Program-made: the position numbers and the translations under genes | The notes under the pieces: generated by a model | What the model saw: the letters and a program-made list of their open reading frames with translations, nothing else | What the model was told of the DNA's origin: nothing | Databases searched by the model: none | Source: Pseudolabrys sp. | Lineage (GTDB): Bacteria; Pseudomonadota; Alphaproteobacteria; Rhizobiales; Xanthobacteraceae | Length of the DNA stretch: 64,000 nucleotides | NCBI GenBank assembly: GCA_026125895.1 | Contig: JAHCKG010000004.1 | Location: 163,223 to 227,222 of the forward strand | Reading direction: 5' to 3' | Shown: in pieces, positions 1,984-44,011 of the stretch | How the letters are laid out: the number at the start of each line of letters is the position of its first letter | Position numbering within the stretch: the stretch's first letter is position 1

Positions 1984-2759
1984 TGTTCGCCGCGGCCGAT
2001 CAGCCAGTTGAGCATGACGCTGACCGCCGCGACGGCGAGGATGGCCGAATAGGTGCCGGGGATGTCGAAGCGGAAGTAGCGATCGGCGACGATACGCCCG
2101 AGACCGCCGACATCGACGAGATACTCGATCGCGACGATGTTGATCAGCGTGTACATCAACGCCAGACGCACACCGGTGGCGATGGTCGGCGCGGCCGCCG
2201 GCACCATGATGCGCCAGAAGATGGCGTTCTTCGACAGCGCATAGCTCAGGCCGACATTGATATAGGTTTGCTTGACGCCGAGGAACCCCTCCTGGACGTG
2301 AAGGATGAGCGGGATGAAACCCGGCAGGAATCCCATGACGATGAGCGTCACCTGATTGCGGCCGAAGACGACGAGAAACAGCGGGTACAGCAGGAATATC
2401 GGCGCCGCCGACAGCGACGCGAACCAGCTCGTATAGGCAATGCCGAAAGCGCGGCGCTTGTACATCAGGTGGCCGAGCGGAACCGCGACCAGGATTTCGA
2501 GCACCAGCGCGGTCAGCGTCGTCGTCATCGTCGAGCGCAGCGCGCCGAGGATATCGACCTTGGCCTGCAAATCGGCGATGCCGAGGATGGTGGTGCTCGG
2601 CTCGGCGACAATCGCCCGCGACACGAACCCGCCGCGCACCAGGCCTTCAAGCAGCAGCAGAAACGCGACCAAAACGAGAAGCGAACAGAACGCCGGCGAA
2701 CTGAGGAACCGGATCAGGACAGATCGGACGGTTGCGCGCGGTTTCGCCATGTCAGGCAT
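1965..2759 (-). CDS. ABC transporter permease (TauC/SsuC type)
   Basis: This 264-residue membrane protein is the second permease of the pair. It starts with a short basic N-terminus (MPDMAKPRATVRS), has about six membrane spans, and carries an EAA-like loop around residues 165-195 (ALSKNAIFWRIMVPAAAP). The start overlaps the stop of the ThDP enzyme gene by 8 bases and the end overlaps the next permease by 19 bases, so ThDP-1, both permeases and the molybdenum hydroxylase appear to be one transcript. Having two different permeases without an ATPase beside them is unusual for this family, where the order receptor-ATPase-permease is common. Confidence 0.9.
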   Translation of the reverse strand: MPDMAKPRATVRSVLIRFLSSPAFCSLLVLVAFLLLLEGLVRGGFVSRAIVAEPSTTILGIADLQAKVDILGALRSTMTTTLTALVLEILVAVPLGHLMYKRRAFGIAYTSWFASLSAAPIFLLYPLFLVVFGRNQVTLIVMGFLPGFIPLILHVQEGFLGVKQTYINVGLSYALSKNAIFWRIMVPAAAPTIATGVRLALMYTLINIVAIEYLVDVGGLGRIVADRYFRFDIPGTYSAILAVAAVSVMLNWLIGRGEQWIRSR

Positions 2760-4494
2760 CGCTCAGCCAGTCGAAGCTGGCGCCTCGCGAGGGATCGATC
2801 AGAACGTCGATGACATAAGGCTTGCCGGCCTCCACCGCCTTGATGCCGCGTTCCAGTGCCGCGAGTAAATCACCAGCTTTCGTAACGGGACCTTCGGCGG
2901 CTACGCCATAATCGCGCGCCAGGCCGGCGAGATCGACCGCCGGGTCGTCGATGCGCTGGCCGATCCAGCGATTGGTAACCGGACGCTTGCGCTCACGCGC
3001 CACGGTCTCCTGCTGGATTTCGTCGGTGAAATAGGAGCGATTGTTCGCCACCACCATCAGCAGCGGAATGTCGTAATGCGCCGCGGTCCACAAGGCCGAG
3101 GCGGCGCCGAGATACTCGCCGTCACCCATGATGCCGACCACGACCCGCCCCGAGCCGGCGAGCGCCAGCGCGGCGCCGACGCTCATGCCCGGACCGGAGC
3201 CAACGCCGCCGCCGCCGTCATAGCCGAGATAGTCGAGCGGCTCGCGGAACGGATAGCTGGCCGACGGCCAGTTCAGCGGCGCGCGCGCCAGCGTGATCTG
3301 CCGGCCTTCGCGCAGCTTCGCCATCGCCTGGCCGAGATCGGTGAGCGTCGGCGTCAGGCTGGGATCGCCGGCAAAATCGGGCGCCCTCTTCTGCTCGATG
3401 GCCATCGGCTTGGCCGGCGGCTTGAGCCGATCCAGCAGCGCCGCGACCGCCATGTGCGGCTCGACGGCCATGTCGAGATCGACCGGGGCCAGGCGCTGAT
3501 GATCGCCGCTATAGGAATTGTGCGCCTGATGATCGACGGTCACGCTGATCACCTTGGCCTTGCCGCCCGCCTGCAACAGCGTGTCGGCGAGATCGTACCA
3601 GTCGAGGCTGAGCACGAGATCGGCCTTACCGATGGTGGCCTTGTCGTTCGGCGACAGGAACAGGTCCTGTGGTCCGCCATGCAGCGGATGCTCGGTGGGG
3701 AACGAGGCGCCCATGCGCAGATCCGTGACGACGCGCGCATTGAGCCGCTCGGCCAGCGCGACCCGCTGGTCCCACTGCCCGCGGTCGAGCGAGACGCGGC
3801 CGATGAGCATCGCGATGTTCTTGGCGGCGGACAACATCGTAACGGCGCGGTCGAGCATTTCGGCTGACGGCGCCGCCGGCGCCTTCGGCTTGTAGCGCCC
3901 GATGTCCGGAAGCGCGATGTCGCCTTCCAGCGCGTCTTCCTGAAGGCGGCGGTCGAGGACCACGTAAGACGGGCCGCAGGGCGCGGTGTTCGCTGCCTGC
4001 CAGGCGCGCAGGATGCTGTCGATCTGGGCGCGCGGCGTCGTCGGCTGCTCGTCCCATTTGACGTAGTGGCGCACCAGCGCGCCCTGATCGCGGAACGTAT
4101 GGTTCCAGTCGATCCAGTTGCGGCGCACCGCGCTGTCCACCGCGCCGGTAGCGCCGAGGACCAGCATCGGTACGCGGTCGCACCAGGCATTGAAGATCGA
4201 CATCGTGCCGGCCATGAGGCCAACATTGCTGTGGACGACGACCGCCATCGGCTCGCCGCAGGCCTTGTAGTAACCGTGCGCGATCGCGACGACCGACTGC
4301 TCGTGCAGCGACAGCAGCATCTGCGGCTTTTCGTTGCCGAGATAGTTGATCAGGCTGTCATGCAGGCCGCGGAAGCTCGAGCCCGGATTGACGCAGACAT
4401 ATTTGATGCCGAGCCGGCGCAGGAGTTCGGCGACGATGTCGCTGCCCCAGCCCAGCACCGGCTTTGCATCTTTTTCCGTCTGATCCGCTTTCAT
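2752..4494 (-). CDS. ThDP-dependent enzyme, benzoylformate decarboxylase-like (ThDP-1)
   Basis: This 580-residue protein has the length and three-domain layout (PYR, central, PP) of the acetolactate synthase / benzoylformate decarboxylase superfamily. The ThDP-activating glutamate is E65 (SLHEQS). The Mg-ThDP motif starts with GDG at 457 and ends with NN at 485. H88 lies 23 residues after E65, matching by memory-based alignment the E47-H70 spacing of Pseudomonas benzoylformate decarboxylase; the NPGS loop at 36-39 corresponds to its Ser26 loop. A non-oxidative 2-oxo acid decarboxylase is the best guess. It is one of four paralogues here and most resembles ThDP-2. It follows an FMN 2-hydroxyacid oxidase and an aldehyde dehydrogenase in the operon. 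Substrate and exact reaction are unproven; carboligation remains possible. Confidence 0.85.
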   Translation of the reverse strand: MKADQTEKDAKPVLGWGSDIVAELLRRLGIKYVCVNPGSSFRGLHDSLINYLGNEKPQMLLSLHEQSVVAIAHGYYKACGEPMAVVVHSNVGLMAGTMSIFNAWCDRVPMLVLGATGAVDSAVRRNWIDWNHTFRDQGALVRHYVKWDEQPTTPRAQIDSILRAWQAANTAPCGPSYVVLDRRLQEDALEGDIALPDIGRYKPKAPAAPSAEMLDRAVTMLSAAKNIAMLIGRVSLDRGQWDQRVALAERLNARVVTDLRMGASFPTEHPLHGGPQDLFLSPNDKATIGKADLVLSLDWYDLADTLLQAGGKAKVISVTVDHQAHNSYSGDHQRLAPVDLDMAVEPHMAVAALLDRLKPPAKPMAIEQKRAPDFAGDPSLTPTLTDLGQAMAKLREGRQITLARAPLNWPSASYPFREPLDYLGYDGGGGVGSGPGMSVGAALALAGSGRVVVGIMGDGEYLGAASALWTAAHYDIPLLMVVANNRSYFTDEIQQETVARERKRPVTNRWIGQRIDDPAVDLAGLARDYGVAAEGPVTKAGDLLAALERGIKAVEAGKPYVIDVLIDPSRGASFDWLSDA

Positions 4495-4500
4495 CGGTCG

Positions 4501-5934
4501 CTACTGCCAGGTTTCGGTGATCGTCTTGACGTTCATGTGCTCGAGCAGACCTTCGATGCCGGACTCGCGGCCGATGCCGCTGTCCTTCATGCCGCCGAAT
4601 GGCCCTTCAGGCGCGGTCACCGTGACGCCGTTGATGGCAATTACGCCCGCTTGCAGCGCCTCGCCGATCCGCGCCGCATAGGATTGCGAGCGTGTGAAGG
4701 CGTAGGCCGCAAGCCCGTATGGCAAGCGGTTCGCTTCCCTGACGACGCCATCGAAATCCTTGAACGGCACTAGCGGCGCCAGCGGGCCAAAGGGTTCGGT
4801 ATTCATCAAACTGGCCTCTTTCGACAGGCAGGTGATGACGGTCGGTTCGAAGAAGAAGCCGGTATTGCCCTTGCGGCGGCCGCCGGTGGCGACACGCCCG
4901 CCGCGTGCTTCGGCATCGGCCACCAGTTTTTCCATGGCATCGATGCGGCGCGCATTGGCGAGCGGGCCCATCTGCGATTTCGCATCGAGGCCGCTGCCGA
5001 CCTGCAAGGCCGACGCCGCCGCGGTGAAGCCGGCGGCGAACTTGTCGAACAGCGAATCGTGAATGAAGAAGCGCGAACCGGCGGTGCACACCTGCCCGGC
5101 ATTGCGGAAGCGGCTGCCCACTGACAGCGAGATCGCGCGATCGAGATCGGCATCCTCGAAAACAATGACCGGCGCGTGGCCGCCCAATTCCAGCGTGACC
5201 TTCTTGAAATCATGGCTGGCGAGGGATGCAATATGCCTGCCAACATTGGTCGAGCCGGTCAGCGACACCTTGCGGATGATCGGCGACTTGATGAGGCGCT
5301 CGGATACCTGCGCCGGTTCGCCGAACAGGATATTGACGACGCCCTTGGGCACGCCGGCCTGCTCGCACACCTTGCCGAGGGCCACGGCCGTGCCGGGCGT
5401 CTCTTCCGCCGGCTTGAGCACGATGGAGCAGCCGGCGGCGAGCGCATGCGCAATCTTGCGGCCCGGCATCATGCAGGGGAAATTCCACGGCGAGAACGCC
5501 GCCACCGGACCGATCGGCTCATGCACGACCATGGTGCGGGTATTGGCGACGCGGCTCGGCACCAGGCGGCCGTAGATGCGGCGCGATTCCTCGGCCAGCC
5601 ACTCGAACAATTCGGCGGTTGCGCCGACTTCGGTGCGCGCCTCGGCGATCGGCTTGCCTTGCTCCAAGGTCATGACATGGGCGATGGCGTCCGTCTGCTC
5701 GCGCAGCAAAGTCGCGATCTTGCGGATGACCTTGGCGCGCTCCTGCGGCAGCACCTTCCTCCAGACCTCGAAGCCGCGCTCCGCCGCGGCGAGCGCACGA
5801 TCGATGTCGTCGGCCGAGGCGTAAGGCACGCGGCCGATCTCCTCGCCGGTCGCCGGGTTGAGCACGGCGCCGCTGCGCTTGCCGTCGCCTGTGCTCCACG
5901 CGCCGTCGATGAAGAACGCCAGGCGGTCGTGCAT
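4501..5934 (-). CDS. NAD(P)-dependent aldehyde dehydrogenase (GabD-like)
   Basis: This is a 477-residue aldehyde dehydrogenase that oxidises an aldehyde to the acid with NAD(P). It starts MHDRLAFFIDGAW; longer versions of the frame read into the upstream gene in the wrong frame. The general base glutamate is in TLELGGHAP and the catalytic cysteine in NAGQVCTAGSRF; the C-terminal PFGGMKDSGIGRE is typical of the family. The sequence looks closest to succinate-semialdehyde dehydrogenases. The gene begins 2 bases after the stop of the 2-hydroxyacid oxidase and ends 6 bases before ThDP-1. It could therefore oxidise the aldehyde released by that decarboxylase, as MdlD does in the mandelate pathway; that assignment is inference. 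Confidence 0.9.
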   Translation of the reverse strand: MHDRLAFFIDGAWSTGDGKRSGAVLNPATGEEIGRVPYASADDIDRALAAAERGFEVWRKVLPQERAKVIRKIATLLREQTDAIAHVMTLEQGKPIAEARTEVGATAELFEWLAEESRRIYGRLVPSRVANTRTMVVHEPIGPVAAFSPWNFPCMMPGRKIAHALAAGCSIVLKPAEETPGTAVALGKVCEQAGVPKGVVNILFGEPAQVSERLIKSPIIRKVSLTGSTNVGRHIASLASHDFKKVTLELGGHAPVIVFEDADLDRAISLSVGSRFRNAGQVCTAGSRFFIHDSLFDKFAAGFTAAASALQVGSGLDAKSQMGPLANARRIDAMEKLVADAEARGGRVATGGRRKGNTGFFFEPTVITCLSKEASLMNTEPFGPLAPLVPFKDFDGVVREANRLPYGLAAYAFTRSQSYAARIGEALQAGVIAINGVTVTAPEGPFGGMKDSGIGRESGIEGLLEHMNVKTITETWQ

Positions 5935-5936
5935 GA

Positions 5937-7013
5937 TCAGACCAATCTGCCGTTGGGCAAATGCGCGAAGGTGCTCATCTCGTGGCTGGGCCCCAGCGGA
6001 TCGACCGCGCAGAGATAATCCTTGGTCAGTTCCTTGAACGAGACGAGGCCGAGCAGCGCCAGCGTGTTGGTGATCTCGCGCTCGATCAGTTCGAGCGAGC
6101 GCACCAGGCCATCGGCGCCGCCGGCGGCCAGCGCCCAGCCCTGCATGCGGCCGATCAGCACCGCATCGGCGCCGAGCGCCACCGCCTTGATGACATCCGA
6201 GCCGCGCAGGAAGCCGCCGTCCACCAAAATGCGCGCCTTGCCCGCCGCCGCGGCGACGACGGTCGGCAGCGTTTCCATGGCGCCGAGACAATGATCGAGC
6301 TGGCGGCCGCCGTGGTTGGAGACGTAGATGATGTCGACGCCACGCTCGATCGCCAGCTTGGTGTCGGCGGCGGTCGCAACGCCCTTGAGAATGAACGGGC
6401 CGCCCCACTCCGCCTTGATGAAGTCCATCAACTCCCAGGTGATGGCGGACTGCAGATGACGGTTGGTCTGGGCCTTCACGCTCGGCGGCTGGTATTGATT
6501 CATCAATTGCCGCTCGCGGATGCCGTACACCGCCGAATCCACGGTCAGCGCCAGCGCCGCATAACCGGCCGTCTTGACGCGGCCGATGATGTCCTTGAGC
6601 CAGGCCTTGTCGCCGCGCACATAGAGCTGAAAGATCTTCGGGCCCTCGGCGGACTTGGCGCAATCCTCCAGGCTCGGCTGGGTGATCGAGGAGATCATCG
6701 GGATGGTGCCGAACTTCGCCGCCGCGGCGCAGGACGACGCGCCGCCGCCTTCATGGATCGCCTGCAGCGAGCCGATCGGCGCCAGCATCACCGGGATGCG
6801 CAGCTTGTGGCCGAGAAACGTGGTCGAAGGATCGACCTTGGACACGTCGCGGCAGACACGCGGCAGGAACGCGAGTTTGTCGAGCGCATAGCGGTTGCGC
6901 CGCAAGGTCGTCTCCGACTCGGCCGCACCGGTCAGATAGTCCCATACATCCTGGGTCAGGTTCTTGCGGGCAACCTCGATGATTTCCTGGTTGCAAGTGA
7001 AATCCGCGGCCAT
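5937..7013 (-). CDS. FMN-dependent alpha-hydroxy-acid oxidase/dehydrogenase
   Basis: This 358-residue TIM-barrel flavoprotein belongs to the glycolate oxidase / lactate dehydrogenase / mandelate dehydrogenase family, which oxidises L-2-hydroxy acids to 2-oxo acids. FMN contacts include PVMLAPIGSLQAIH and QLYV; the catalytic histidine and substrate arginine lie in SNHGGRQLD; the phosphate site is LVDGGFLRGSDV and GADAVLIGR. No membrane-binding insert is obvious, so it may be a soluble oxidase or a loosely bound dehydrogenase. It overlaps the operon logic of hydroxyacid oxidase, aldehyde dehydrogenase, ThDP decarboxylase. The natural substrate could be an aromatic or branched 2-hydroxy acid. 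Confidence 0.9.
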   Translation of the reverse strand: MAADFTCNQEIIEVARKNLTQDVWDYLTGAAESETTLRRNRYALDKLAFLPRVCRDVSKVDPSTTFLGHKLRIPVMLAPIGSLQAIHEGGGASSCAAAAKFGTIPMISSITQPSLEDCAKSAEGPKIFQLYVRGDKAWLKDIIGRVKTAGYAALALTVDSAVYGIRERQLMNQYQPPSVKAQTNRHLQSAITWELMDFIKAEWGGPFILKGVATAADTKLAIERGVDIIYVSNHGGRQLDHCLGAMETLPTVVAAAAGKARILVDGGFLRGSDVIKAVALGADAVLIGRMQGWALAAGGADGLVRSLELIEREITNTLALLGLVSFKELTKDYLCAVDPLGPSHEMSTFAHLPNGRLV

Positions 7014-7043: not shown

Positions 7044-8441
7044 TCAGTTCGCCGTCGCGGCTTCCACTTCCTTGATGGCTTCAAGGAAAATGTCGATACC
7101 TTTTCGCAAGTGCGCTTCGGTGATGACCAGCGGCGGCATCAGGCGGAACGTATTACCATTGCGGCCGCAAGCCATGACGCGCACGCCGCGCTGCTCGCAG
7201 GCCTTGGCGATCTGACCCATGTATTTGGCTTCGAGCGGCGTGCGCTTGTCCTTGTCGCTCACCAGTTCGACGCCGATGAACAGACCGCGGCCGCGCACCT
7301 CGCCGACCAGCCGGCAGGACTTCTGGAAATCGAGCAGGCGTTGCTTCAGGTCCGCCCCCAGCTTGGCGGCGCGGCCGATCAGATCGGTCTTGGGATCACT
7401 GAGGATTTCGAGATTGGCGAGACCGACGGCATTGACGACAGCGTTCTCGGCGCTGGTGATGACCTGCGAACTCTGCGGCAGTTTCTCGTAGAAACGCTTG
7501 TGCGCGGTGACGCCGGACAGCGGCATGTCGCCGCCGACCGCCTTGGCCCAGACCAGCATGTCCGGCTTGATACCGTAATGCTCGACCGCCCACATCTTGC
7601 CGGTGCGGCCGGCGCCGGCCTGCACTTCGTCGATGATGAGGATGATGCCGCGCTTGTCGCAGGCCTCGCGCAACGCCTTCATGAACTCGATCGGTGGATC
7701 GATGTAGCCGCCATCGGCCTGCATCGACTCGACGATCACGGCGGCAACGTCGTCGGCGCCGGTGTTCGGCGTGTTGAGCTTGAAGTCGAGATACTTGCCG
7801 CAGGCCTGCGCGCAGCTCTTGGCGTCGAAGCCGGCGAAGCAGCGATAGCAATAGGCGTACGGCATGTGGATCGCGCCGGGCATCAGCGGCAGATAAGGCA
7901 CGCGGAAATTCTCGCGCGTCGTCAGCGCCAGCGAGCCGTGGAAGACGCCGTGATAGGCGCCCTCGAAGGCGACGATCTGATGCTTGCCGGTAATCGCCTT
8001 GGCGAACTTGATCGCGGTCTCGACGGCGGCCGAGCCGCTCATGCCGAACACCGTGAAGCATTCGCCGCGCAGGCCCTCCGGCATGATATCCGACAGCTTC
8101 TGCGCCAGCTTCACCGTGCTCGACGACACCAGGCCCGCCGAATGCATCAGCTTGGTGGCCTGCTCGCGCACGGCTTCAACCACCTTGGGATGGTTGCGGC
8201 CGACACTCGACACCGCGACGCCCGCGGACAGATCGATGTAGACGTTGTCGTCAGGGTCCTTGATGCCGGCGCCGAAGCCCTCCTCGATCACCAGCGTGCC
8301 GCGCACCGACGGCCGCGTCGGGGTCTGCACCTTGAGGGCATCGTCGATGACCTGACGCGACTTCGGGCCCGGCAGCTCATTGGAGACGATCTTCGGCATC
8401 TCCGGATAAGACAGCTTGGCCAGTTCCTGCTCGGAAATCAT
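7044..8441 (-). CDS. Class III PLP-dependent aminotransferase (GabT-like)
   Basis: This 465-residue enzyme transfers an amino group, usually from an omega-amino group, to a 2-oxo acid. Phosphate binding is at GMSGSAAVETAIK, the pyridine-nitrogen aspartate is in LIIDEVQAGAGRTG, and the Schiff-base lysine is in VWAKAVGGDMPLSG. The segment YCYRCFAGFDAKSCAQAC resembles the cysteine-rich stretch of some 4-aminobutyrate aminotransferases. It lies 30 bases upstream of the hydroxyacid oxidase gene in the same orientation. Together with the GabD-like dehydrogenase this suggests conversion of an amino acid to a semialdehyde and then an acid, a route that may be separate from the decarboxylase branch. 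Substrate unknown. Confidence 0.88.
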   Translation of the reverse strand: MISEQELAKLSYPEMPKIVSNELPGPKSRQVIDDALKVQTPTRPSVRGTLVIEEGFGAGIKDPDDNVYIDLSAGVAVSSVGRNHPKVVEAVREQATKLMHSAGLVSSSTVKLAQKLSDIMPEGLRGECFTVFGMSGSAAVETAIKFAKAITGKHQIVAFEGAYHGVFHGSLALTTRENFRVPYLPLMPGAIHMPYAYCYRCFAGFDAKSCAQACGKYLDFKLNTPNTGADDVAAVIVESMQADGGYIDPPIEFMKALREACDKRGIILIIDEVQAGAGRTGKMWAVEHYGIKPDMLVWAKAVGGDMPLSGVTAHKRFYEKLPQSSQVITSAENAVVNAVGLANLEILSDPKTDLIGRAAKLGADLKQRLLDFQKSCRLVGEVRGRGLFIGVELVSDKDKRTPLEAKYMGQIAKACEQRGVRVMACGRNGNTFRLMPPLVITEAHLRKGIDIFLEAIKEVEAATAN

Positions 8442-8511: not shown

Positions 8512-9753
8512 CTATCCGGCGGCCGCCTTCACGCCGCGCTGGGCGCGGCGCTCGTGCTTGCCCGGCGCCAGCGTCGTCTCGAGATTGAACAAGCGCTGCG
8601 CGTTGCCGCCGAGAATGTCGCGCTTGGCCTGCTCGTCGAGAAACGGCAGGTCGTAGATGGTGGACGGCAGGTCCATGTCCCAGTGCGGGTAATCCGACGA
8701 GTACAGCAACTGCGTCTTGGCGTTGATCATTTCGAAGGTCACTTCCAGTGCCTTCGGATTGTTGACCATCTCCATCGGCTGCGAGGTGTAGTACATCTCG
8801 CGCATGTAGTCGCTGGGGATGCGCTTGAGCAGCGGTGCGTCCGACGAGCGCATCATGAATTCGTTGTCGAGGCGCTGCATCAGGAACGGCACCCAGGCGA
8901 GGCCCGATTCGATCCAGACGACCTTGAGCTTGGGGAAGCGCTCCGGCATGCCGTTGACCAGCCAGTTGGTCATGTGGAGCATGTTGTGCCAGGTGAAGCC
9001 CAGCGCATGTACCGCCATGAAGCGGTTAGTCAGCGACAGCTGCTTGTCGCTCCAGGTATAGGCGGCGTGAAACGCCAGCGGCAGGTTGCGTTCCTGCAGC
9101 ATCGCATAGAGCTTCATATAAGCGTTGTCGTGGACGGATCGGTAATGCGTCGCCACCACCATGAAGCCGATGACGCCCTTGCGGCTGCCGAACTTCTCGA
9201 CGATGTCGATACAGGCCGCCGGGTCGTTGAACGGCAGATAGAGCATCGACTTGAGGCGGCCATTCTCGCTCTCGAGAATGTTGTCGCATAGCCAGCGGTT
9301 ATAGGCGCGCGCCAGCGCCACCTCGACCTCGATGCGCGGACAGGTGACGATGTTCAGCATCGGCGTCGGGAACATGCAGGCGACGTCGACGCGCAGCGCG
9401 TCCATCCAACGATACATCAGCGTGATGTCGCGGTGCGGCTGGGCCGGCACCTTCTCGCCGCGACGCTCCGGATAGCGCGTGATGCGCCCGGTCATTTCCT
9501 GATACGAGCCATCCATCGACGCGATGCCGCCGCGCGCCATGCCCTGGAACTTGGCTTCGCGGCGCAAGACGGGATCGTCGATGTAGTCGGCGATCTCGCT
9601 GAAGGCCTCGGTCTCGTAGTGGTGCGCATCGACATCGACGATCATGAAATCGTCGTAGTTGCGCGATTCACCCTGCGCCGCGGCGTTCTTGAGATGCACC
9701 GAGCTGTTAAAGCCCTCGTTCGCGACGTCACGGTTGCTGGTCACCTTCAACAT
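8512..9753 (-). CDS. Amidohydrolase family protein (ACMSD-like metal-dependent hydrolase/decarboxylase)
   Basis: This 413-residue protein fits the amidohydrolase-2 family, whose members include aminocarboxymuconate-semialdehyde decarboxylase and other aromatic-acid decarboxylases or ring hydrolases. The N-terminal metal motif is DVDAHHYE (near residue 40), further ligands are likely at AFHAAYTW and the conserved aspartate in YSSDYPHWD near residue 355. The first 35 residues are not conserved, so a later start is possible, but the ATG shares one base with the stop of the upstream small gene, which supports it. It is probably cytoplasmic and acts on a ring-fission product or an aromatic acid. 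Its steady companions here are a Rieske ferredoxin and a small unknown protein. Confidence 0.85.
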   Translation of the reverse strand: MLKVTSNRDVANEGFNSSVHLKNAAAQGESRNYDDFMIVDVDAHHYETEAFSEIADYIDDPVLRREAKFQGMARGGIASMDGSYQEMTGRITRYPERRGEKVPAQPHRDITLMYRWMDALRVDVACMFPTPMLNIVTCPRIEVEVALARAYNRWLCDNILESENGRLKSMLYLPFNDPAACIDIVEKFGSRKGVIGFMVVATHYRSVHDNAYMKLYAMLQERNLPLAFHAAYTWSDKQLSLTNRFMAVHALGFTWHNMLHMTNWLVNGMPERFPKLKVVWIESGLAWVPFLMQRLDNEFMMRSSDAPLLKRIPSDYMREMYYTSQPMEMVNNPKALEVTFEMINAKTQLLYSSDYPHWDMDLPSTIYDLPFLDEQAKRDILGGNAQRLFNLETTLAPGKHERRAQRGVKAAAG

Positions 9754-10094
9754 CAGAAGCGCTCCGTCGCGGACTCGTCATACTTGATACGGCCGACGCT
9801 CGACATGTTCTGCCAGGCGCCGAGTTCGAAAAGAGCAAGGTTGACCGCCTCCAGCATCGCGGTGCAGCCGATCGCGACATCGGTCGCGGTCACGCCGCTG
9901 TTGCGGCCGAAGGGCAGCACACTCTCGCCGGCCTGCGCCTTGGCGGCGTAAACCTGCAGGACCGATGCGAAAGCCTGGCCCAGCGCATCGGCCGGAATGT
10001 CCTCAAGGCGGTTCTGCTCGATGGCCTCGAGGCAGCGCGCGGACAGATCGCTCGCCAGATCCGAGAAATCGCGCGCGGCGTCAGATCGCGACAT
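9753..10094 (-). CDS. Small protein of unknown function in Rieske/amidohydrolase operon
   Basis: I do not recognise a named family for this 113-residue protein. It is acidic, mostly helical in appearance, has no signal peptide or membrane span, and no metal-binding cysteines. The N-terminal half (DFSDLASDLSARCLEAIEQN) looks amphipathic. It overlaps the Rieske ferredoxin gene upstream by 14 bases and shares one base with the amidohydrolase start, so all three are probably made in fixed ratio. A structural or accessory subunit of a Rieske- or amidohydrolase-containing complex is a reasonable guess, but it is only a guess from position. Confidence 0.7.
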   Translation of the reverse strand: MSRSDAARDFSDLASDLSARCLEAIEQNRLEDIPADALGQAFASVLQVYAAKAQAGESVLPFGRNSGVTATDVAIGCTAMLEAVNLALFELGAWQNMSSVGRIKYDESATERF

Positions 10095-10449: not shown

Positions 10450-10568
10450 TTGCCTCGTACTCCTTGCGCGCACCGAAGGGTCATTGCTAAGGTACCTATT
10501 GGTAAGATACCTTACGATTAATATAAGTCAACTCAGTTTTCTGTATCAATTGTCTGCCGGAGATTTCC
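10450..10568. promoter_or_regulatory. Divergent promoter region with MarR-type inverted repeat
   Basis: This is the AT-rich gap between the Rieske operon and the divergent marR-1 gene. Positions 10488-10514 form an inverted repeat with perfect 7-base arms (TAAGGTA / TACCTTA) around a 13-base spacer; the halves also read as near direct repeats, TAAGGTACC and TAAGATACC. MarR proteins usually bind such palindromes between themselves and their target operon, so autoregulation plus repression of the Rieske operon is the likely reading. The sequence is seen directly; binding is inference. Confidence 0.6.
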
Positions 10569-11918: not shown

Positions 11919-11945
11919 GGTGTTCATCCCTCGACTGGGTCTGGC

Positions 11946-34215: not shown

Positions 34216-34260
34216 GAATCCTTCCTCCGCATCGAAGTCACGTCGCCGCAGACGGCGGCA

Positions 34261-35001: not shown

Positions 35002-35030
35002 GATTGCAGTCTCGATTCTTCAGCGTGGCG

Positions 35031-36005: not shown

Positions 36006-36052
36006 GGGGCAATTCCTTCTTTCGTCAGAACAGCGGCGGCTCGATCGCCGCC

Positions 36053-37054: not shown

Positions 37055-37377
37055 TTTTCCGCGCTCCAGTTCAATTCCCACGAAAAGCAGAAACTCTCAG
37101 AAATTCACGCGCATGCGCCGCGTTTGCGCCCCTGCAATGGCTGATCGGAAGGCCGGCCCGGCGCGCCGCGGCGGCCCTCCGGCTACTAAACATATATACA
37201 GTAGCTATATTACATAGTTTTATTTTAGAGGCAACCCTGACGGGCGGGCCGCTGTATCGCGCCGATTGAAACAGCCGTGCCCCGGAATGACGCGCCCAAT
37301 GGTGCGTCCTCCAGCACGGCCGCCGCAGTTCCCCGAGGGCTCCCCCGAACTTTTGCATCTCACCTGGCCTTGCCTCT

Positions 37378-37850: not shown

Positions 37851-38933
37851 GTGAACGAGCCTGTTGTCCGCTTTGTCAACGTCAACAAGACCTATGACGG
37901 CAAGGCACTGGTCGTCGACGATCTCAATCTGTCCGTCACGCGCGGTGAATTTCTGACGCTGCTCGGCTCGTCCGGCTCGGGCAAGACGTCGTCGCTGATG
38001 ATGGTCGCCGGCTTCGAGCAACCGACCTCGGGCGACATTCTGCTCGACGGCAAACCCATCACCCGGCTGCCTGCCTACCGGCGAAATATCGGCGTCGTCT
38101 TCCAAAATTACGCGCTCTTCCCGCACATGACCGTGGCGGAAAATCTGGCCTTTCCGCTTCAGGCGCGGAAGGCCACGAAAGCCGACATCGACAAGAAGGT
38201 CTCGCGCGTTCTCGAGATCGTCCGGCTGACCGGATACGAGAACCGCAAGGCCCCGCAATTGTCCGGCGGCCAGCAGCAGCGCGTCGCGCTGGCCCGCGCC
38301 CTCATCTTCGATCCCGCTCTGGTGCTGATGGATGAACCGCTCGGCGCCCTCGATCGCCAACTGCGCGAAGCGATGCAGTACGAGATCAAGCACATCCACG
38401 ACACCCTCGGCATCAGCGTCATCTATGTCACCCACGACCAGGACGAAGCGCTGGCGATGTCCAACCGCATTGTAGTGCTGGAAAAGGGCAAGATCGAACA
38501 GGTCGGAACGCCGAAGGAATTGTACGAGGCGCCGGCCAGCGCCTTCGTCGCCGGCTTCGTCGGCGAGAACAACTGCATGAAGGGCCGTGTCCGCTCGGCC
38601 GATGGCGGCTCATGTGCCATCGAGATGCCGTGGGGCGAGGTTCGCGCCGTTACGGTCGGCGCCGCCGGTATCGGCCGCGACACGACCTGGTCGGTGCGTC
38701 CGGAGCGCATCGAACTCAACGCCGATCGCGGCGGCCTGGACAACCTCTATGACGGCGTTGTCAAGGACGTCGTCTATCTCGGCGATCAGATCCGGGTCTA
38801 CGTCACGATCGGCGACAGCACCTTTGTCTTGAAAGTCACCAACAAGTCCGAACTCGCCGCCCTGACCATCGGCCAGCCCGTCAAGGTGGGATGGCGCGCC
38901 AGGGACTGCCGGGCATTCGGACTGCAACACTGA
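37851..38933 (+). CDS. Pot-type ABC transporter ATP-binding protein
   Basis: This 360-residue ATPase drives an importer of the spermidine/putrescine-type family. It has Walker A GSSGSGKTSS, Q-loop FQNYALFPHM, signature LSGGQQQRV, Walker B LVLMDEPLGALD and switch YVTHDQDEA, followed by a C-terminal TOBE-like domain (residues ~245-360). It starts at GTG. It leads a four-gene plus-strand operon with receptor and two permeases. Despite the family name, related systems in alphaproteobacteria often import other small organic molecules, so polyamine uptake is not assured. Confidence 0.92.
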   Translation: MNEPVVRFVNVNKTYDGKALVVDDLNLSVTRGEFLTLLGSSGSGKTSSLMMVAGFEQPTSGDILLDGKPITRLPAYRRNIGVVFQNYALFPHMTVAENLAFPLQARKATKADIDKKVSRVLEIVRLTGYENRKAPQLSGGQQQRVALARALIFDPALVLMDEPLGALDRQLREAMQYEIKHIHDTLGISVIYVTHDQDEALAMSNRIVVLEKGKIEQVGTPKELYEAPASAFVAGFVGENNCMKGRVRSADGGSCAIEMPWGEVRAVTVGAAGIGRDTTWSVRPERIELNADRGGLDNLYDGVVKDVVYLGDQIRVYVTIGDSTFVLKVTNKSELAALTIGQPVKVGWRARDCRAFGLQH

Positions 38934-39003
38934 CTCGAGATACGCCGGCCGAAAGGCATGCGTTGGCACTGACTGTTTAGCGTTCACCTCAGGGGAGACG
39001 ACC

Positions 39004-40044
39004 ATGATGTCCAGATTGCCGCGTTGTATCGCTCTTGCAGCCGTAGCCGCCTTTGTCACCTCCGCCGCCGCCGCCCGCGATCTGACCGTTGTGTCGTGGG
39101 GCGGCGCCGTGCAGAAGGCGCAGAGCACGGCCTTCCTCGAACCCTTCGCTCAGGAGACGAAGACGCCGCTGCGCCAGGCTTCCTGGGAGGGCGGCATCGG
39201 CATCCTGCGCGCCAAGGTGCAGAGCGGCAACGCCGACTGGGATGTCGTCGAGGTCGAGTCGGACGAACTGGCCATCGGCTGCGAGGAGAACCTCTACGAG
39301 AAGCTCGACTGGAGCAAGATCGGCGGCAAGGACATCTATTTTCCCGAGGCCGTCAATTCGTGCGGCGTCGGCGCGCTGCTGTACAGCTTCGTCCTGGCCT
39401 ATGACCCGGCCAAGGTGAAGGGCGAGCCGAAGAGCTGGACCGATTTCTACGATCTCGCCAAATATCCCGGCAAGCGCGCGCTGCGCTCGGGACCGAAGCT
39501 GACGCTGGAAAGCGCGCTGCTGGCGGATGGCGTCGCCCCGGCGGATGTCTACAAGGTGCTGGGCACCGATGAAGGCGTCAATCGCGCCTTCAAGAAGCTC
39601 GACACCATCAAATCCAACATCATCTGGTGGCAGACCGGCCAGAAGCCGGTGGAACTGCTCGCCTCCGGCGAGGTGGCGATGACCGGCGTGTTCAACGGCC
39701 GCATCACCGCCGCCAAGAATGCCGGCAAGGTGTTCAACATGGTCTGGAACCAGAGCATGTACACCTGGGACAGCTGGGTGATCCTGAAGGGCTCGCCGAA
39801 CCTCGACGCCGCCTACAAGCTGCTCAACTACATGAAGGATGCCAGCCAGCAGGCCAAGCAGATGACCATGCTGGCGAACGGCACCTCCAACAAGGACAGC
39901 ATCGCCAAGGTCGATCCCAAGATCGCGGCCGACCTGCCCTCGGCGCCGGCGAATTCGGCGCACGCCATGGAAGTCAGCGCCCAGTTCTGGCTCGACAACT
40001 TCGACAAGCTCAGCGACCGCTTCACCAAGTGGGTCGCGCAGTGA
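39004..40044 (+). CDS. Pot-type ABC transporter substrate-binding protein
   Basis: This 346-residue receptor has a signal peptide (MMSRLPRCIALAAVAAFVTSAAAA) and a mature start RDLTVVSWGGAVQKAQ that is typical of PotD/F-like proteins. Further family segments are WDVVEVESDEL, KYPGKRALRSGPK and WNQSMYTWDSWVI. GGGGAG lies seven bases upstream of the ATG. Cargo unknown; the gene neighbourhood offers an amine or aminated compound as one possibility, since a class III aminotransferase is encoded nearby. Confidence 0.92.
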   Translation: MMSRLPRCIALAAVAAFVTSAAAARDLTVVSWGGAVQKAQSTAFLEPFAQETKTPLRQASWEGGIGILRAKVQSGNADWDVVEVESDELAIGCEENLYEKLDWSKIGGKDIYFPEAVNSCGVGALLYSFVLAYDPAKVKGEPKSWTDFYDLAKYPGKRALRSGPKLTLESALLADGVAPADVYKVLGTDEGVNRAFKKLDTIKSNIIWWQTGQKPVELLASGEVAMTGVFNGRITAAKNAGKVFNMVWNQSMYTWDSWVILKGSPNLDAAYKLLNYMKDASQQAKQMTMLANGTSNKDSIAKVDPKIAADLPSAPANSAHAMEVSAQFWLDNFDKLSDRFTKWVAQ

Positions 40045-40162
40045 GGCGCCCTGCGGCAAGGGCCTCGGCCCTTGCCGCACTTCTTCAGCCGGCAGGTGCG
40101 AGCAGGCATCATAACGATGAACGCGAGCAGGGCTTCACGATCCCGAATGCGAGCAAGGCTTC

Positions 40163-41374
40163 ATGACCGATAGTCATGTTTTGGGCCGGCAGCTTCACGC
40201 CTCCAACCGCCGCCGCCACCTGACCTCGCTCGCGCTGGTCGCTCCGCTCTTTATATTTCTGATTTTCTCATATGGGTTTCCGATTGGCACCATGTTGTGG
40301 CAATCGGTTGCGGACAAAGAAGTCGGCACGGCGTTTCCGCAAACCGTTGCGGCTCTCGCCTCGTGGGACGGCAAGAGCTTGCCTGACGAAAATGTCTTTC
40401 GCCTCCTTGCGGCCGATATTAAGAAAGCCCGCGCCGACGAGACCCTGGCGCCTGCCGCGCGGCGCTTGAACTACGACGTCAGCGGCTTTCGCGAGGCATT
40501 GTTTCGCACCGCGCGGCGCCCGCCCCCGGCCGATACGGCGTCGGTCAAAGATTTTCTCATCGGTATCGACCCGGCGTGGAGCAACTTGAATTACTGGGGC
40601 GCGATCCGGAATGCGGCGGGACCAGTCTCGTTGTACTACCTGCTATCGGCAATTGATCTTCGAACGGATTCCGCCGGGTCGATCGGCGCGAAGCCCGAAG
40701 AAGCATCGATCTTCATCGACATCTTCATTCGTACCTTCGAAATGTCGCTCGTCGTCACGCTGCTTTGCGTCGCGCTGGGCTTTCCGGTCGCTTATTTGCT
40801 GGCCAGCCTGCCGGCGCGGCTCGCCTACCCATTGCTGGTGCTGGTTCTCGTGCCGTTCTGGACATCGCTGCTGGTTCGCACCGCCGCGTGGGTCGTGCTT
40901 TTGCAGAACCGCGGCATCGTGAACCATGCACTCGTCGACCTGCATATTCTGAACGAACCGACCGCCCTGATCTATAACCGGCTCGGCGCCTATGTTGCCA
41001 TGACGCACATTCTGCTGCCTTATTTCATCTTGCCGCTTTTCAGCGTCATGAAAGGCATTTCACCGAATTACATGAGGGCGGCCGCGAGCCTGGGCGCCAG
41101 GCCGATCCGGGCCTTCATCAAGGTCTATCTGCCGCAATGCGCCTCTGGCATCACGGCCGGCTGTCTGCTGGTCTTCACCGTGGCGATCGGCTTCTACATC
41201 ACGCCGGCGCTCGTCGGCGGCGCAGCCGATCAGATGATCAGCTACTACATCGCGTTCTACACCAACACGGCCGCGAACTGGGGGCTCGCCTGCGCGCTCA
41301 GTGTGTGGCTGCTGGCCGCAACGTTCATCCTGTACGTTGTGTATTCACGGCTGGTGGCGAGGCCGATCATATGA
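40163..41374 (+). CDS. Pot-type ABC transporter permease (PotB-like, long first loop)
   Basis: This 403-residue permease has a first membrane span at residues ~22-45, then an extra ~120-residue soluble stretch (from VADKEVGTAFPQTV to about DLRTDSAG) before the remaining five spans. The EAA-type loop ASLGARPIRAFIKVYLPQCASG lies near residue 315. The extra stretch should face the periplasm and may touch the receptor. Codon use in the first third looks less GC-biased than in neighbours. It overlaps the next permease by four bases (ATGA). Confidence 0.9.
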   Translation: MTDSHVLGRQLHASNRRRHLTSLALVAPLFIFLIFSYGFPIGTMLWQSVADKEVGTAFPQTVAALASWDGKSLPDENVFRLLAADIKKARADETLAPAARRLNYDVSGFREALFRTARRPPPADTASVKDFLIGIDPAWSNLNYWGAIRNAAGPVSLYYLLSAIDLRTDSAGSIGAKPEEASIFIDIFIRTFEMSLVVTLLCVALGFPVAYLLASLPARLAYPLLVLVLVPFWTSLLVRTAAWVVLLQNRGIVNHALVDLHILNEPTALIYNRLGAYVAMTHILLPYFILPLFSVMKGISPNYMRAAASLGARPIRAFIKVYLPQCASGITAGCLLVFTVAIGFYITPALVGGAADQMISYYIAFYTNTAANWGLACALSVWLLAATFILYVVYSRLVARPII

Positions 41375-42207
41375 CGGTCGGTCATGAACACCGCCCGCTG
41401 TCGCAGCGCCTGACGCGGCTGGCGTTATGGGTCATCACCATCCTGGTGCTGACCTACCTGATCGCGCCGCTGCTCGTCATCATCCCGCTGTCGTTCAGCT
41501 CGAGCGCCTTCCTGAACTACCCGATTCCGTCGTTTTCGCTGCGCTGGTACGAGGACTTCTTCACGTCGCCGGAATGGCGGCTGGCGATCTGGAACTCGCT
41601 GGTCGTCGGCTCGATCACCGCGCTGCTGGCGACATCCCTCGGCACGCTGGCCGCGCTCGGCCTCAACCGCGCCGACTTTCCTTTCAAACGGATCATCACC
41701 GGCTTCTTCATCTCGCCGCTGGTGGTGCCGGTCATCATTCTCGCCGTCGGCACCTATTTCTTCTTCGCGCCGCTGCGGCTGACCGGCACCTACACCGGCA
41801 TCATCCTGGCGCACACGACGATGGCCATCCCCTTCGTCGTCATCACGGTCGGCGCCACGCTGACCGGGCTCGACGACAACCTCGTCCGCGCCGCCTTCAG
41901 CCTCGGCGCCCACCCGGTCCGCGTCTTCTTCAAGGTGATCCTGCCGCTGGTGCTGCCGGGCGTCGTCTCCGGCGCCGTCATCGCCTTCGCCACCTCGCTC
42001 GACGAGGTCGTCATGATCCTGTTCCTGGCGGGGCCCGAGCAGAACACCATCCCGCGGCAGATGTTCAACGGCATCAAGTATTATCTGAGCCCGACCATCA
42101 CCGCGGTCGCCACCGTGCTGATCGTGGTGTCGATCCTCATCCTCGGCCTGATCGGCCTGCTGCGCCGGCGCATGGACAAGCTGCGCGCGTCCACCGCCGA
42201 GCACTAA
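41371..42207 (+). CDS. Pot-type ABC transporter permease (PotC-like)
   Basis: This 278-residue membrane protein has six spans and the EAA-type loop FSLGAHPVRVFFKVILPLVLPG near residue 175. The ATG overlaps the preceding stop (ATGA), which excludes the longer frame. It completes the importer of 37851-42207. Its TAA stop lies within one arm of a hairpin whose other arm contains the stop of the converging ThDP-4 gene. Confidence 0.92.
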   Translation: MTVGHEHRPLSQRLTRLALWVITILVLTYLIAPLLVIIPLSFSSSAFLNYPIPSFSLRWYEDFFTSPEWRLAIWNSLVVGSITALLATSLGTLAALGLNRADFPFKRIITGFFISPLVVPVIILAVGTYFFFAPLRLTGTYTGIILAHTTMAIPFVVITVGATLTGLDDNLVRAAFSLGAHPVRVFFKVILPLVLPGVVSGAVIAFATSLDEVVMILFLAGPEQNTIPRQMFNGIKYYLSPTITAVATVLIVVSILILGLIGLLRRRMDKLRASTAEH

Positions 42208-42226
42208 CGGCGATGCAGCGCCGTTA
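42205..42226. terminator. Hairpin formed over two convergent stop codons
   Basis: TAACGGCG (42205-42212) and CGCCGTTA (42219-42226) form a perfect 8-base-pair inverted repeat with a 6-base loop. Each arm contains the TAA stop of one of the two converging genes. No T-tract follows, so termination strength is doubtful. Confidence 0.5.
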
Positions 42227-44011
42227 GCGGCCGATGCGGCCCTGCGCCGACGCCTTCGGCAGATCCGGCCGGGCGATGCGCACGTCGATCAGGAACGGCC
42301 GGCCCTCGCGCACCGCCACGAGGCCCTGCTTGATGGCGGCGCGCAGCGTGTCGCGCGACGTTACCGGCCCGATCGCCTCGACACCCTGCCCATCCGAGAT
42401 CTTGACCATGTCGAGCTCCGGATCCGACAGACGCTGGCCGATCCAGCGGTTGTCGCGCGGACGGTTGCGCAGGCTCGCCATCACGTTCTGGTGGATCTCA
42501 TCGTTGAAGTTGGAGGCGTTGTTGGCGATGATGAACAGCGCCGGTATGCGGTAATGGGCGGCGGTCCACAAGGCGGTGGCGCCTTGCAGGAAGTCCCCGT
42601 CGCCGATCACGGAAATCACCGGCCGTCCGCTGTCCTTCAACGCCAGCGCGGCGCCGATGGTGATGCCCGGTCCCGCCGCCAGGCCGGCGCCGCCGTCATG
42701 GCCGAGGAAATCGAGCGGCTCGCGATAGTCATAGACGCCGCCGCTCCACACCAGCGGCAGATGCGCGATGGTGAATTGTTCTTCGCCGCGCTCCTCGGCC
42801 AGCGCGACTTCGATATCGAAATAGGTCAGTTGGCCGTCGGGAGCCGCGGCCGGTCGTTCGGCGGCAACGGCGCTGCCCGCGGCCTTCGGTGCCTCGCGGC
42901 GCACCTCTCGCAGACGCTTCAGCATCTGGCCGACGACCACATCGGCGTCGGCCTTGATCTGGATATCGACCGGCGGAATGCCGAAATGGTCGAGGCTCCA
43001 GCCGTTATGCAGCGCGACGTCGAGCGAGACGTGGACGATCGTCGCGTTCAGCGGCTTGCCGCGGCCGGCCATCTCCTGGAACAGGCCGTTGAGATCGACC
43101 CAGTCGAAGCTGACGATGACATCTGCCGCCGCCAGCGTATCGGTCGCCGCCGCAGTCAGGCCGTCGATCGGCGGCCCGGCATGAAGCCGGTGCGCGGTCG
43201 GAAACAGCGCGCGCTCGCGTAGCGAGGTGATGACGGCCGCGCCGCTGAGTTCGGCGAGCGCCACGCGGCGGTCCCAGTCGTCCTGTTCACGCGAACCGCG
43301 GCCGAACAGCAACACCGGCCGTTTCGCCTGCGCCGTCGCTTTCGTCGCGGCCGCGATATCGTCTTCGGCGCCTCCCGGGGGTGACGGCGGCGCGTAGCGC
43401 CGCGGGTCCGGCAAGGCGATGCCCGCGCCAATGGCCTGCTCCTGCAGACCGGCATCGAGGCAGACATAAACCGGCGCCTGCGGCAGATCGCGCGTCATCT
43501 GCGAAGCCTTCAGGAAGGCCTGCACGATGCCCTGGCTGGAGCGCGGCTCGTCGTCCCACTTGGTGAAATGGCGCAGCATGGCGCCCTGGTCCTTGCAGGT
43601 GTGGATCCAGTCGATCCACGGCCGCCGCTTTTCAAATTCGACCGGGCCGGTGGCGCCGATCACGATCATGGGCACGCGGTCGCACCACGCATTGAAGATG
43701 CCCATCAGGCCGTGCATCAGCCCGACATTGCTGTGCAGCGCGCAGGCCATTGGCTTGCCGGTGACCTTGGCGTAACCATGGGCAATCGACACCACATGAT
43801 CCTCGTGCAGACACACGAGCATCTGCGGATCGCGGTTACCGAGATAGTTGACGATGCTGTCTTCGAAGCCGCGATAGCTCGCGCCGGGATTGATGGCGAT
43901 GTAGGGCACATCGAGGATCCGCAGCATTTCCGCTGCGAGATCGCTGTTCCATTTCATCTCACGGTTCGAGGCAATGTTATCCGGCTGCTCGCGCGCTACC
44001 GACGTGTCCAT
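42224..44011 (-). CDS. ThDP-dependent enzyme, benzoylformate decarboxylase-like (ThDP-4)
   Basis: This 595-residue protein is the fourth ThDP paralogue and is most like ThDP-3 (shared RRPWIDWIHTCKDQGA, SFDWVDLNGLF, GDGDFLQGATALWTAAHY). The ThDP glutamate is E70, H93 matches benzoylformate decarboxylase H70, the substrate loop is NPGA with A44, and GDG...NN spans 470-498. An upstream frame extension reads antiparallel codons of the aminotransferase gene and is rejected; MDTSVAREQ starts 11 bases after that gene. Transcribed with a class III aminotransferase, so it may decarboxylate a 2-oxo acid or use the pyruvate/aldehyde side of that reaction. Unproven. Confidence 0.85.
   Translation of the reverse strand: MDTSVAREQPDNIASNREMKWNSDLAAEMLRILDVPYIAINPGASYRGFEDSIVNYLGNRDPQMLVCLHEDHVVSIAHGYAKVTGKPMACALHSNVGLMHGLMGIFNAWCDRVPMIVIGATGPVEFEKRRPWIDWIHTCKDQGAMLRHFTKWDDEPRSSQGIVQAFLKASQMTRDLPQAPVYVCLDAGLQEQAIGAGIALPDPRRYAPPSPPGGAEDDIAAATKATAQAKRPVLLFGRGSREQDDWDRRVALAELSGAAVITSLRERALFPTAHRLHAGPPIDGLTAAATDTLAAADVIVSFDWVDLNGLFQEMAGRGKPLNATIVHVSLDVALHNGWSLDHFGIPPVDIQIKADADVVVGQMLKRLREVRREAPKAAGSAVAAERPAAAPDGQLTYFDIEVALAEERGEEQFTIAHLPLVWSGGVYDYREPLDFLGHDGGAGLAAGPGITIGAALALKDSGRPVISVIGDGDFLQGATALWTAAHYRIPALFIIANNASNFNDEIHQNVMASLRNRPRDNRWIGQRLSDPELDMVKISDGQGVEAIGPVTSRDTLRAAIKQGLVAVREGRPFLIDVRIARPDLPKASAQGRIGR

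Follow-up and report, generated by a model that had tools for sequence, protein, structure and literature searches.

We analyzed a 64,000-nucleotide stretch, hereafter the window, of a metagenome-assembled genome (MAG) of Pseudolabrys sp. (4.52 Mb; GenBank assembly GCA_026125895.1, contig JAHCKG010000004.1, positions 163,223 to 227,222, G000:C34:163223-227222 in our indexing). The window carries a catabolic gene island with four divergent thiamine diphosphate (ThDP)-dependent enzymes, T1 to T4. It is somewhat probable that T1-T4 are 2-oxo-acid decarboxylases of a clade related to but distinct from benzoylformate decarboxylase (BFD), and that they serve the catabolism of aromatic or aryl-aliphatic acids through a core module with T3 and T4 as add-ons. 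Instead of comprising four independent routes, the island most likely represents a variant of mandelate-type decarboxylation in which two modules are integrated and two are add-ons. What is new is that, in some lineages, ThDP enzymes of this family (the T family) are linked genomically to amidohydrolase-related dinuclear oxygenases (AROs).

All four proteins matched the Pfam TPP_enzyme N, M and C domains over their whole length and are annotated here as BFD-like, probable decarboxylases: T1 (2752-4494, minus strand, 580 aa), T2 (13520-15322, minus strand, 600 aa, GTG start), T3 (28465-30318, plus strand, 617 aa) and T4 (42224-44011, minus strand, 595 aa). The ThDP Glu, the His 23 residues further on (E65 and H88 in T1) and the GDG and NN motifs were invariant in the alignment of the four, in agreement with an earlier reading of this DNA made without database searches (the sequence-only reading). 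The length of 580-600 residues given there fits T1, T2 and T4 but not T3. In the same alignment T2, T3 and T4 were 50%, 47% and 46% identical to T1, which rules out four recent copies and bears out their earlier description as divergent. The nearest genus-labelled relative of T1 was found in Pseudolabrys sp. Root1462 (93%), an isolate that carries T1-T3 and the ARO set.

The dN/dS values against orthologues in two genomes of the genus, G035 and G036, were 0.058-0.064 for T1, 0.050 for T2, 0.113-0.135 for T3 and 0.075-0.084 for T4; rows of a third genome, G033, for T4 and its neighbor AT3_2 were left out as non-orthologous, since G033 lacks module 4. All four genes are under purifying selection, and these values together with the whole-length domain matches exclude chance. 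A profile of T1-T4 found 13 matches in the own genome, four of which exceeded 1000 bits and were all located within the island. The next best reached 97 bits; therefore, the family is confined to the island in the available sequence of this genome. A motif scan and a repeat scan found nothing beyond the ThDP genes and other paralogous genes.

At least 560 family genes were present among the 593 pattern matches listed from a species-level genome collection, and 80 loci were kept. They belonged mainly to Pseudomonadota, and a few came from Thermodesulfobacteriota, Binatota and Actinomycetota. One T-family gene assigned to a 'Klebsiella pneumoniae' MAG was near-identical to that of a betaproteobacterial MAG (L036 and L045) and is probably mis-binned. 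In the FastTree phylogeny, for which seven other ThDP genes from the own genome served as the root, all family rows fell into one group. When four plasmid-borne BFDs were included, the BFDs and the family were split together from five other ThDP rows, the designated outgroup (SH-aLRT 98). T1 grouped with Ancylobacter and a second copy from the genome G040, and T2 with Ancylobacter, a Bosea MAG and G040. T3 and T4 fell inside one five-row group (SH-aLRT 98), with the branching order in the group not fixed. Of the two sub-pairs proposed earlier, 3/4 is thus consistent with the tree, while 1/2 was dropped as a proven sister pair: a clade uniting the T1 and T2 groups (seven rows) gave a p-AU of 0.50 and was neither supported nor rejected.

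The best NCBIfam match of T1-T4 was PRK08327, 'thiamine pyrophosphate-requiring protein', a model whose name states no function; the scores of 196.6-230.4 bits were under its cut-off of 456. The cut-off of the BFD family PRK07092 (493 bits) was missed by a wide margin by T1 (168.3), T2 (153.4), T3 (153.4) and T4 (159.6) and was not reached by any other gene of the own genome, where the best score was 191.4 bits. Acetolactate synthase and every other named NCBIfam family were rejected as assignments, the best 25 of the 48-49 families per protein all being below cut-off. No PDB entry was matched in a profile search at E 1e-60. Literature searches on the gene set found no study of it, and only ARO papers and reference-list titles were relevant.

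An AlphaFold2 model was made for T2 only, from 41 aligned rows (pLDDT 87, pTM 0.90). Its top Foldseek matches were BFD structures, with a TM-score by query length of 0.73-0.76. These top matches included the 4-hydroxybenzoylformate decarboxylases from R. jostii RHA1 and from P. fluorescens Pf-5 (7orx, 6qsi), two enzymes close in fold but 19-21% identical to the T2 model. By the title of a 2019 study by Wei et al., these two enzymes are reportedly linked to aryl-C2 lignin fragments. Active-site residues were counted in 131 distinct family rows (135 less four own-genome duplicates of T1-T4) against four plasmid BFDs, retrieved with a BFD query; the BFD numbering used is consistent with the mutant names printed in the Foldseek output. 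BFD residues E47 (130/131), H70, D428 and N455 (131/131 each) were kept, E47 and H70 in all four window proteins. Position 465 was Gln in all 131 rows, and Ile110, Asp111 and Trp112 occurred in 130, 119 and 131 of them. The label 'BFD-like' given earlier therefore applies to the fold of the T2 model and to the Glu/His pair, but not to the substrate loop or the family cut-off.

For the gene neighborhoods, the 80 loci were reduced to 70 after removal of duplicates and to 53 with 5 kb on both sides, two of which (L002 and L024) are the two ends of one Ancylobacter region. Twenty 20-kb pieces taken at round-number positions of four genomes provided 40 half-stretches as controls. Within 5 kb, aldehyde dehydrogenase (ALDH) genes occurred at 20 of the 53 loci and at none of the 40 controls (p 2e-6), and FMN oxidase genes at nine loci and no control (p 0.005). 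Importer genes were also enriched, namely tctC (22/53 versus 3/40) and the NitT-type ATPase (15/53 versus 2/40). UbiD and the Rieske oxygenase were each found at 5/53 loci and 0/40 controls (p 0.055). Other partners were rare: D-2-hydroxyacid dehydrogenase 3/53, class III aminotransferase 2/53, ARO 2/53, HpaB 1/53 and DAO-type oxidase 0/53, with 0/40 controls for each. The more special partners named in the sequence-only reading are thus uncommon across the family. Because the neighbors are enriched in ALDH, FMN 2-hydroxyacid oxidase and importers, 2-oxo-acid decarboxylation is likely, and from these neighbors and the fold of the T2 model a BFD-type 2-oxo-acid decarboxylase is the best reading of T1-T4.

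In the T1 operon, T1, ALDH1 (4501-5937, minus strand) and an FMN-dependent 2-hydroxyacid oxidase or dehydrogenase gene (5937-7013, minus strand) are consecutive, with gaps of 6 and -1 nt. ALDH1 is SSADH-like (Pfam Aldedh; TIGR01780 494.9 bits, below the cut-off of 646.35). The FMN enzyme (Pfam FMN_dh, E 2e-104) has lactate oxidase, glycolate oxidase and mandelate dehydrogenase as solved relatives and contains the SNHGGRQL segment. Both partners of T1 named by the sequence-only reading were thus found in this row, and the operon also encodes a class III aminotransferase and an ARO-like set with a Rieske gene that were unlisted there. The aminotransferase, AT3_1 (7044-8441, minus strand; Pfam Aminotran_3, best 25 NCBIfam matches all below cut-off), means that such an enzyme is not the special mark of module 4 it had been taken for.

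The mandelate pathway comprises the FMN dehydrogenase mdlB, the benzoylformate decarboxylase mdlC and the aldehyde dehydrogenase mdlD. The adjacent FMN 2-hydroxyacid oxidase, ThDP enzyme and ALDH of the T1 operon correspond to this set, and the earlier statement that no described pathway with these genes was known was therefore too strong for T1. However, T1-T4 come from a different clade, two of the four seem to use a common importer, and UbiD/HpaB genes and the ARO set are attached. A mandelate-type operon on a plasmid included decarboxylase, FMN enzyme and racemase genes, and no mandelate racemase/enolase Pfam match was found among the window open reading frames (ORFs) scanned.

Downstream of T1 lie the overlapping ATP-binding cassette (ABC) permease genes abcP1a (1965-2759) and abcP1b (1132-1983; both minus strand, Pfam BPD_transp_1), followed by SBP0 (236-1102, minus strand) as the last gene of the operon. 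SBP0 had no Pfam or NCBIfam match and is a probable ABC substrate-binding protein by its position after two permeases only; a homologue (74%) has the same place in G036 (L119). The T1 operon has these two permeases but no ATPase, whereas the T2 operon has an ATPase, abcATP1 (11118-11927, minus strand; Pfam ABC_tran), but no permease. AbcATP1 is the proposed missing ATPase of the T1-operon permeases. Homologues of the ATPase and both permeases were contiguous behind a single ThDP gene at six loci (L127, L129, L130, L023, L056 and L074). In Ancylobacter, the ATPase gene is part of the T2/ARO block, and the permease genes follow T1. T1 and T2 therefore seem to use a single ABC importer whose genes are split, as found in two genera, and would thus serve one imported compound.

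This arrangement bears on the model of the sequence-only reading, in which four independent routes each feed a dedicated decarboxylase. The T3 and T4 modules are indeed separable and have their own partners, but the importer apparently shared by T1 and T2 in two genera conflicts with four independent routes, and we consider this model improbable. Its modular element stands, as modules move separately in G040 and G033.

The partners of T2 agreed with those proposed earlier. ALDH2 (11946-13469, minus strand) adjoins T2 and is BADH-like (Pfam Aldedh; PRK13252 483.1 bits, below the cut-off of 593). In divergent orientation lie the genes of a UbiX flavin prenyltransferase (16149-16739, plus strand; NCBIfam PRK06029 and TIGR00421 above cut-off), a UbiD-family (hetero)aryl acid decarboxylase (16703-18190, plus strand; TIGR00148 262.1 bits, above the cut-off of 244.85; nearest solved structure 7pda, 397 bits) and a D-2-hydroxyacid dehydrogenase (18259-19272, plus strand; Pfam 2-Hacid_dh, NCBIfam matches below cut-off). 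They are followed by an alanine dehydrogenase (19343-20458, minus strand; TIGR00518 491.6 bits, above cut-off) and an HpaB-type reduced-flavin monooxygenase (21083-22600, minus strand; Pfam HpaB_N/HpaB, TIGR02309 332.6 bits, below cut-off) that has solved relatives.

Synteny within the genus was consistent with a core and separable add-ons. At least one family member was detected at E 1e-60 in 34 of the 35 same-genus genomes (own excluded); the sole genome without a match, G039, is 99% complete. T1-T4 occur in the same order in G035 and G036, and G033 has T1-T3 and no T4 module. In G040 the T1-T2/UbiD/HpaB block is rearranged, with MarR2, NMT1a, cupin, DUF2848 and HpaB genes clustered near T1; the DAO-T3 pair is absent, and T4, AT3_2 and the ABC importer are located elsewhere. 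Most other members of the genus have single copies from another branch, followed, where examined (L127, L129, L130), by an ABC ATPase and two permeases. Outside the genus, homologues of UbiX, UbiD, HpaB, AT3_1, ALDH1, T1, the permeases, T2, ALDH2, Rieske, ARO and the ATPase recur in Ancylobacter, and those of NMT1a, UbiX, UbiD, HpaB, T2, ALDH2, Rieske, ARO and the ATPase in a Bosea MAG. In both, a further FMN oxidase homologue is encoded within a few kb of T2.

T3 adjoins the gene of an FAD oxidoreductase of the DAO family (27305-28399, plus strand; Pfam DAO). The nearest NCBIfam model of this enzyme is L-2-hydroxyglutarate oxidase (PRK11728, 202.5 bits, below the cut-off of 299), and it corresponds to the FAD 2-hydroxyacid dehydrogenase earlier assigned to T3. 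T4 adjoins the class III aminotransferase AT3_2 (44023-45408, minus strand; PRK06105 642.1 bits, above the cut-off of 517), which has solved relatives and was likewise foreseen as its partner. Module 4 has its own ABC importer (37851-42207, plus strand), consisting by Pfam of an ATPase with TOBE_2, SBP_bac_8 and two permeases, and this importer is conserved with T4 in G035, G036 and G040.

Between the two modules lies an accessory block (30347-37081, minus strand) with Pfam matches for an amidase, ABC permeases and ATPase, an isochorismatase-fold hydrolase, an NMT1-like substrate-binding protein and TctC. The amidase and isochorismatase-fold hydrolase, together with the DUF2848 protein and alanine dehydrogenase of the island and the molybdenum-hydroxylase subunits beside some relatives, could indicate degradation of an N-heterocyclic or amide-bearing compound, in which UbiD and HpaB would attack the ring at the outset and the ThDP enzymes would act late, on ring-fission products. 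However, the block was found beside T3 in G033, while in G035 and G036 only its TctC gene was found there although T1-T4 are kept. The block is therefore not part of the core, and this explanation seems doubtful.

The T1 operon begins with a small set that includes a PF04909 'amidohydrolase' (8512-9753, minus strand), which we read as an ARO, a type of metal oxygenase known only since recently, from its solved relatives, its residues and the adjacent Rieske gene. The latter (10081-10473, minus strand; Pfam Rieske, CPH and CPWH motifs) encodes a small [2Fe-2S] ferredoxin, the probable electron donor of the ARO. Between them is hyp9753 (9753-10094, minus strand), a small conserved protein without Pfam or NCBIfam match that has homologues in the same set elsewhere. 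The closest solved relatives of the PF04909 protein were the AROs of Liu et al. (PMC10811679) and AibH1H2, with 8sm7 (E 8e-37) first, followed by 8sm9, 8sm6 (SfbO), 6m1w (AibH1H2) and 8sm8, and 5-carboxyvanillate and ACMS decarboxylases were weaker matches (E 3e-11 or worse). A decarboxylase or hydrolase by default was therefore dropped. D40, D42, H44, H229, H249, E282, D354 and H357, candidate ligand residues assigned from motif position, were invariant in all 23 sequences, the window included. The PF04909 protein and the Rieske ferredoxin most likely form an ARO-type oxygenase that hydroxylates its substrate.

AibH1H2 is served by a ferredoxin, AibG, and its reductase, AibF (PMC7782822). Like AibH1H2 and SfbO (PMC7782822, PMC10401708, PMC10811679), the window set pairs a PF04909 protein in which the D/H/E motifs are conserved with an adjacent small Rieske ferredoxin. 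Unlike these systems, it accompanies 2-oxo-acid-type ThDP enzymes and a 2-hydroxyacid oxidase. Among the window ORFs scanned, we recognized neither a second PF04909 protein nor a ferredoxin reductase. In G036 (L119) the ARO, hyp and Rieske genes were 90/76/71% identical to those of the window, with a dS of 0.73 for ARO, and were more diverged than most flanking genes; the AROs of G033 and G035 were 99% identical, and the divergence in G036 looks like a local replacement of the oxygenase set.

ARO relatives (61-63% identity) co-occurred with T-family genes on plasmids of Phaeobacter, Salipiger and Thioclava. On Phaeobacter P92 roughly 15 kb separate the two genes, and the stretch further contains genes for ALDH, D-2-hydroxyacid dehydrogenase, FMN oxidase and a Rieske oxygenase as well as protocatechuate genes. 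A nadC-like gene lies between ALDH and the T-family gene on Phaeobacter and Thioclava plasmids (L151 27365-28216, L135 9128-9919), and the record of a Thioclava plasmid with the ARO/ThDP cluster starts with a 213-base BKC-1 beta-lactamase feature predicted by PLSDB (L152 16500-16712). In Aminobacter the ARO set is accompanied by SSADH, 4-hydroxybenzoate 3-monooxygenase, an aminotransferase and a ThDP enzyme that belongs to a different clade, and in Neorhizobium petrolearium it adjoins a ThDP enzyme outside the T family.

The order sample comprised 249 genomes, with at most five first-look candidates scored per genome. The T family was detected in 15 genomes, ARO in five and both in four, the own genome included. 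Without the own genome, three of the four ARO genomes had the T family (hypergeometric p 6e-4, the genomes not being independent), and two of the seven non-window ARO places, both in G119, were near a T-family gene. In the class sample, ARO was found in 17 of 385 genomes, and the T family in 7/16 ARO genomes (own excluded) versus 25/372 in a slightly different draw with at most three candidates scored per genome. Four of these seven genomes belong to one taxonomic family and two to another. The 33 non-window ARO places of the class sample were fetched as 28 stretches, some ended by contig ends. A T-family gene was located within 9 kb by coordinates in four of them, all from one taxonomic family (G393, G498, G587, G664). 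FMN oxidase occurred in 8/28 stretches and a Rieske homologue somewhere in 19/28; none of 20 control stretches had a ThDP gene. As a general rule, linkage of ARO and decarboxylase is weak.

The same four genomes contain multi-paralogue arrays. A span of about 14 kb contains five T-family matches in each of G498, G587 and G664; G393 has four within 7.4 kb and a fifth on another contig. The arrays are 6-9 kb from the ARO genes, with FMN oxidases in between, and the same ThDP gene arrangement was found in L069 and L078 (labelled Rhodospirillaceae). In the tree the rows of G498 and L069 grouped together and not one by one with T1-T4, which suggests more than one origin for such arrays.

Several points weigh against the decarboxylase reading. 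The partners stand near few loci, from 20 of 53 for ALDH, 9 for FMN oxidase and 5 for UbiD down to 2 for ARO, 1 for HpaB and none for the DAO-type oxidase, and the controls came from four genomes unmatched taxon by taxon. For ARO, 24 of the 28 class-sample stretches, some of them ended by contig ends, had no nearby T-family gene. The own genome is only 82% complete, and no assayed clade member was found in the literature searched. In those window ORFs that were scanned with Pfam, no intradiol or extradiol dioxygenase domain was detected, which leaves the end of the pathway out of sight. Finally, the pocket differs from that of BFD. His281 is not kept, with Thr in 94/131 rows and T, T, Y and L in T1-T4, although this column is the least certain of a sequence alignment at low identity. 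Ser26 is Ala in 101/131 rows and Ser in 30, T1 among them; Leu461 is replaced by Asp in 130/131; and Phe464 by His in 125/131 or by Gln in six, including T1. The substrate, or even the reaction type, of the family may therefore differ from that of BFD.

The Asp/His pair in place of Leu461/Phe464 and the loss of His281 would suit carboligases or lyases that form or cleave acyloins, with ALDH consuming the cleavage aldehyde. The 'HKA synthase' BbmA among both the T3 sequence matches and the T2 fold matches, and benzaldehyde lyase among the T1 sequence matches, are in keeping with such activities. Against them, BFD folds rank first for the T2 model, His70 is present in 131/131 rows and the neighbors include enzymes capable of making 2-oxo acids, so that a role as carboligase or lyase is rather unlikely.

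FMN-dependent and D-2-hydroxyacid enzymes as well as aminotransferases can yield 2-oxo acids, ThDP decarboxylases yield aldehydes from these and ALDHs yield acids; UbiD/UbiX decarboxylates aromatic acids, and HpaB-type enzymes hydroxylate phenols. Under the decarboxylase reading, the core module (approximately 1-26 kb) would import a compound through the one ABC importer whose genes are divided between the T1 and T2 operons. Its side-chain 2-hydroxy acids would be oxidized to 2-oxo acids by the FMN oxidase and the D-2-hydroxyacid dehydrogenase; alternatively, AT3_1 would transaminate 2-amino acids, and alanine dehydrogenase would convert alanine back to pyruvate. T1 and T2 would then release CO2 to give aldehydes, which ALDH1 and ALDH2 would convert to acids one carbon shorter. 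UbiD/UbiX may subsequently strip a ring carboxylate and HpaB may hydroxylate the ring. Intradiol dioxygenases, by three PF00775 matches, are encoded elsewhere in the own genome, in favor of this reading. The ARO-Rieske set most likely hydroxylates the substrate, possibly on the side chain. T3 with its FAD oxidase, and T4 with its aminotransferase and own importer, would be separable add-ons for other 2-oxo acids.

Among the remaining genes of the island, MarR-type regulators are encoded at 10569-11117 (plus strand, Pfam MarR) between the T1 and T2 operons, at 15358-15876 (minus strand, Pfam MarR_2) and at 26655-27305 (plus strand, Pfam MarR). Genes for an MFS transporter, a DUF2848 protein, a Cupin_7 protein and an NMT1/THI5-like protein, all assigned by Pfam, occupy 22750-26054 (plus strand). 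The cupin ORF (24014-25109) overlaps that of DUF2848 by 110 nt as called, and its true start is probably later. In the NMT1/THI5-like protein (25116-26054, 312 aa) the domain starts at about residue 15, compared with residue 73 in NMT1b; it may have no signal peptide and thus not be an ordinary binding protein. Further downstream, a tRNA-Gln (46746-46820, minus strand) overlaps the start of an acyl-CoA dehydrogenase ORF (46776-48698, plus strand), whose true start is probably downstream.

A bolder but improbable extension of the decarboxylase reading is that the ARO-Rieske set is an alpha-hydroxylase of aryl- or alkyl-acetates feeding the T decarboxylases. This would constitute a bacterial alpha-oxidation, R-CH2-COOH to R-CHOH-COOH, R-CO-COOH, R-CHO and R-COOH, run twice within the core module (T1/ALDH1 and T2/ALDH2). 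If true, a likely Mn/Fe or Fe2 oxygenase would carry out the first step, and the multi-paralogue arrays, with four genes here and four to five in Rhodospirillaceae and their relatives, would be sets of a single machine that are specific for chains or substituents.

For the family as a whole, this widespread clade, annotated on plasmids mostly as 'thiamine pyrophosphate-binding protein', is a probable source of 2-oxo-acid decarboxylases with a loop unlike that of BFD. AROs of one subtype stand beside 2-hydroxyacid oxidases and the T-type ThDP clade in several lineages, though in a minority of the places examined, and this association therefore gives a short list of testable substrates.

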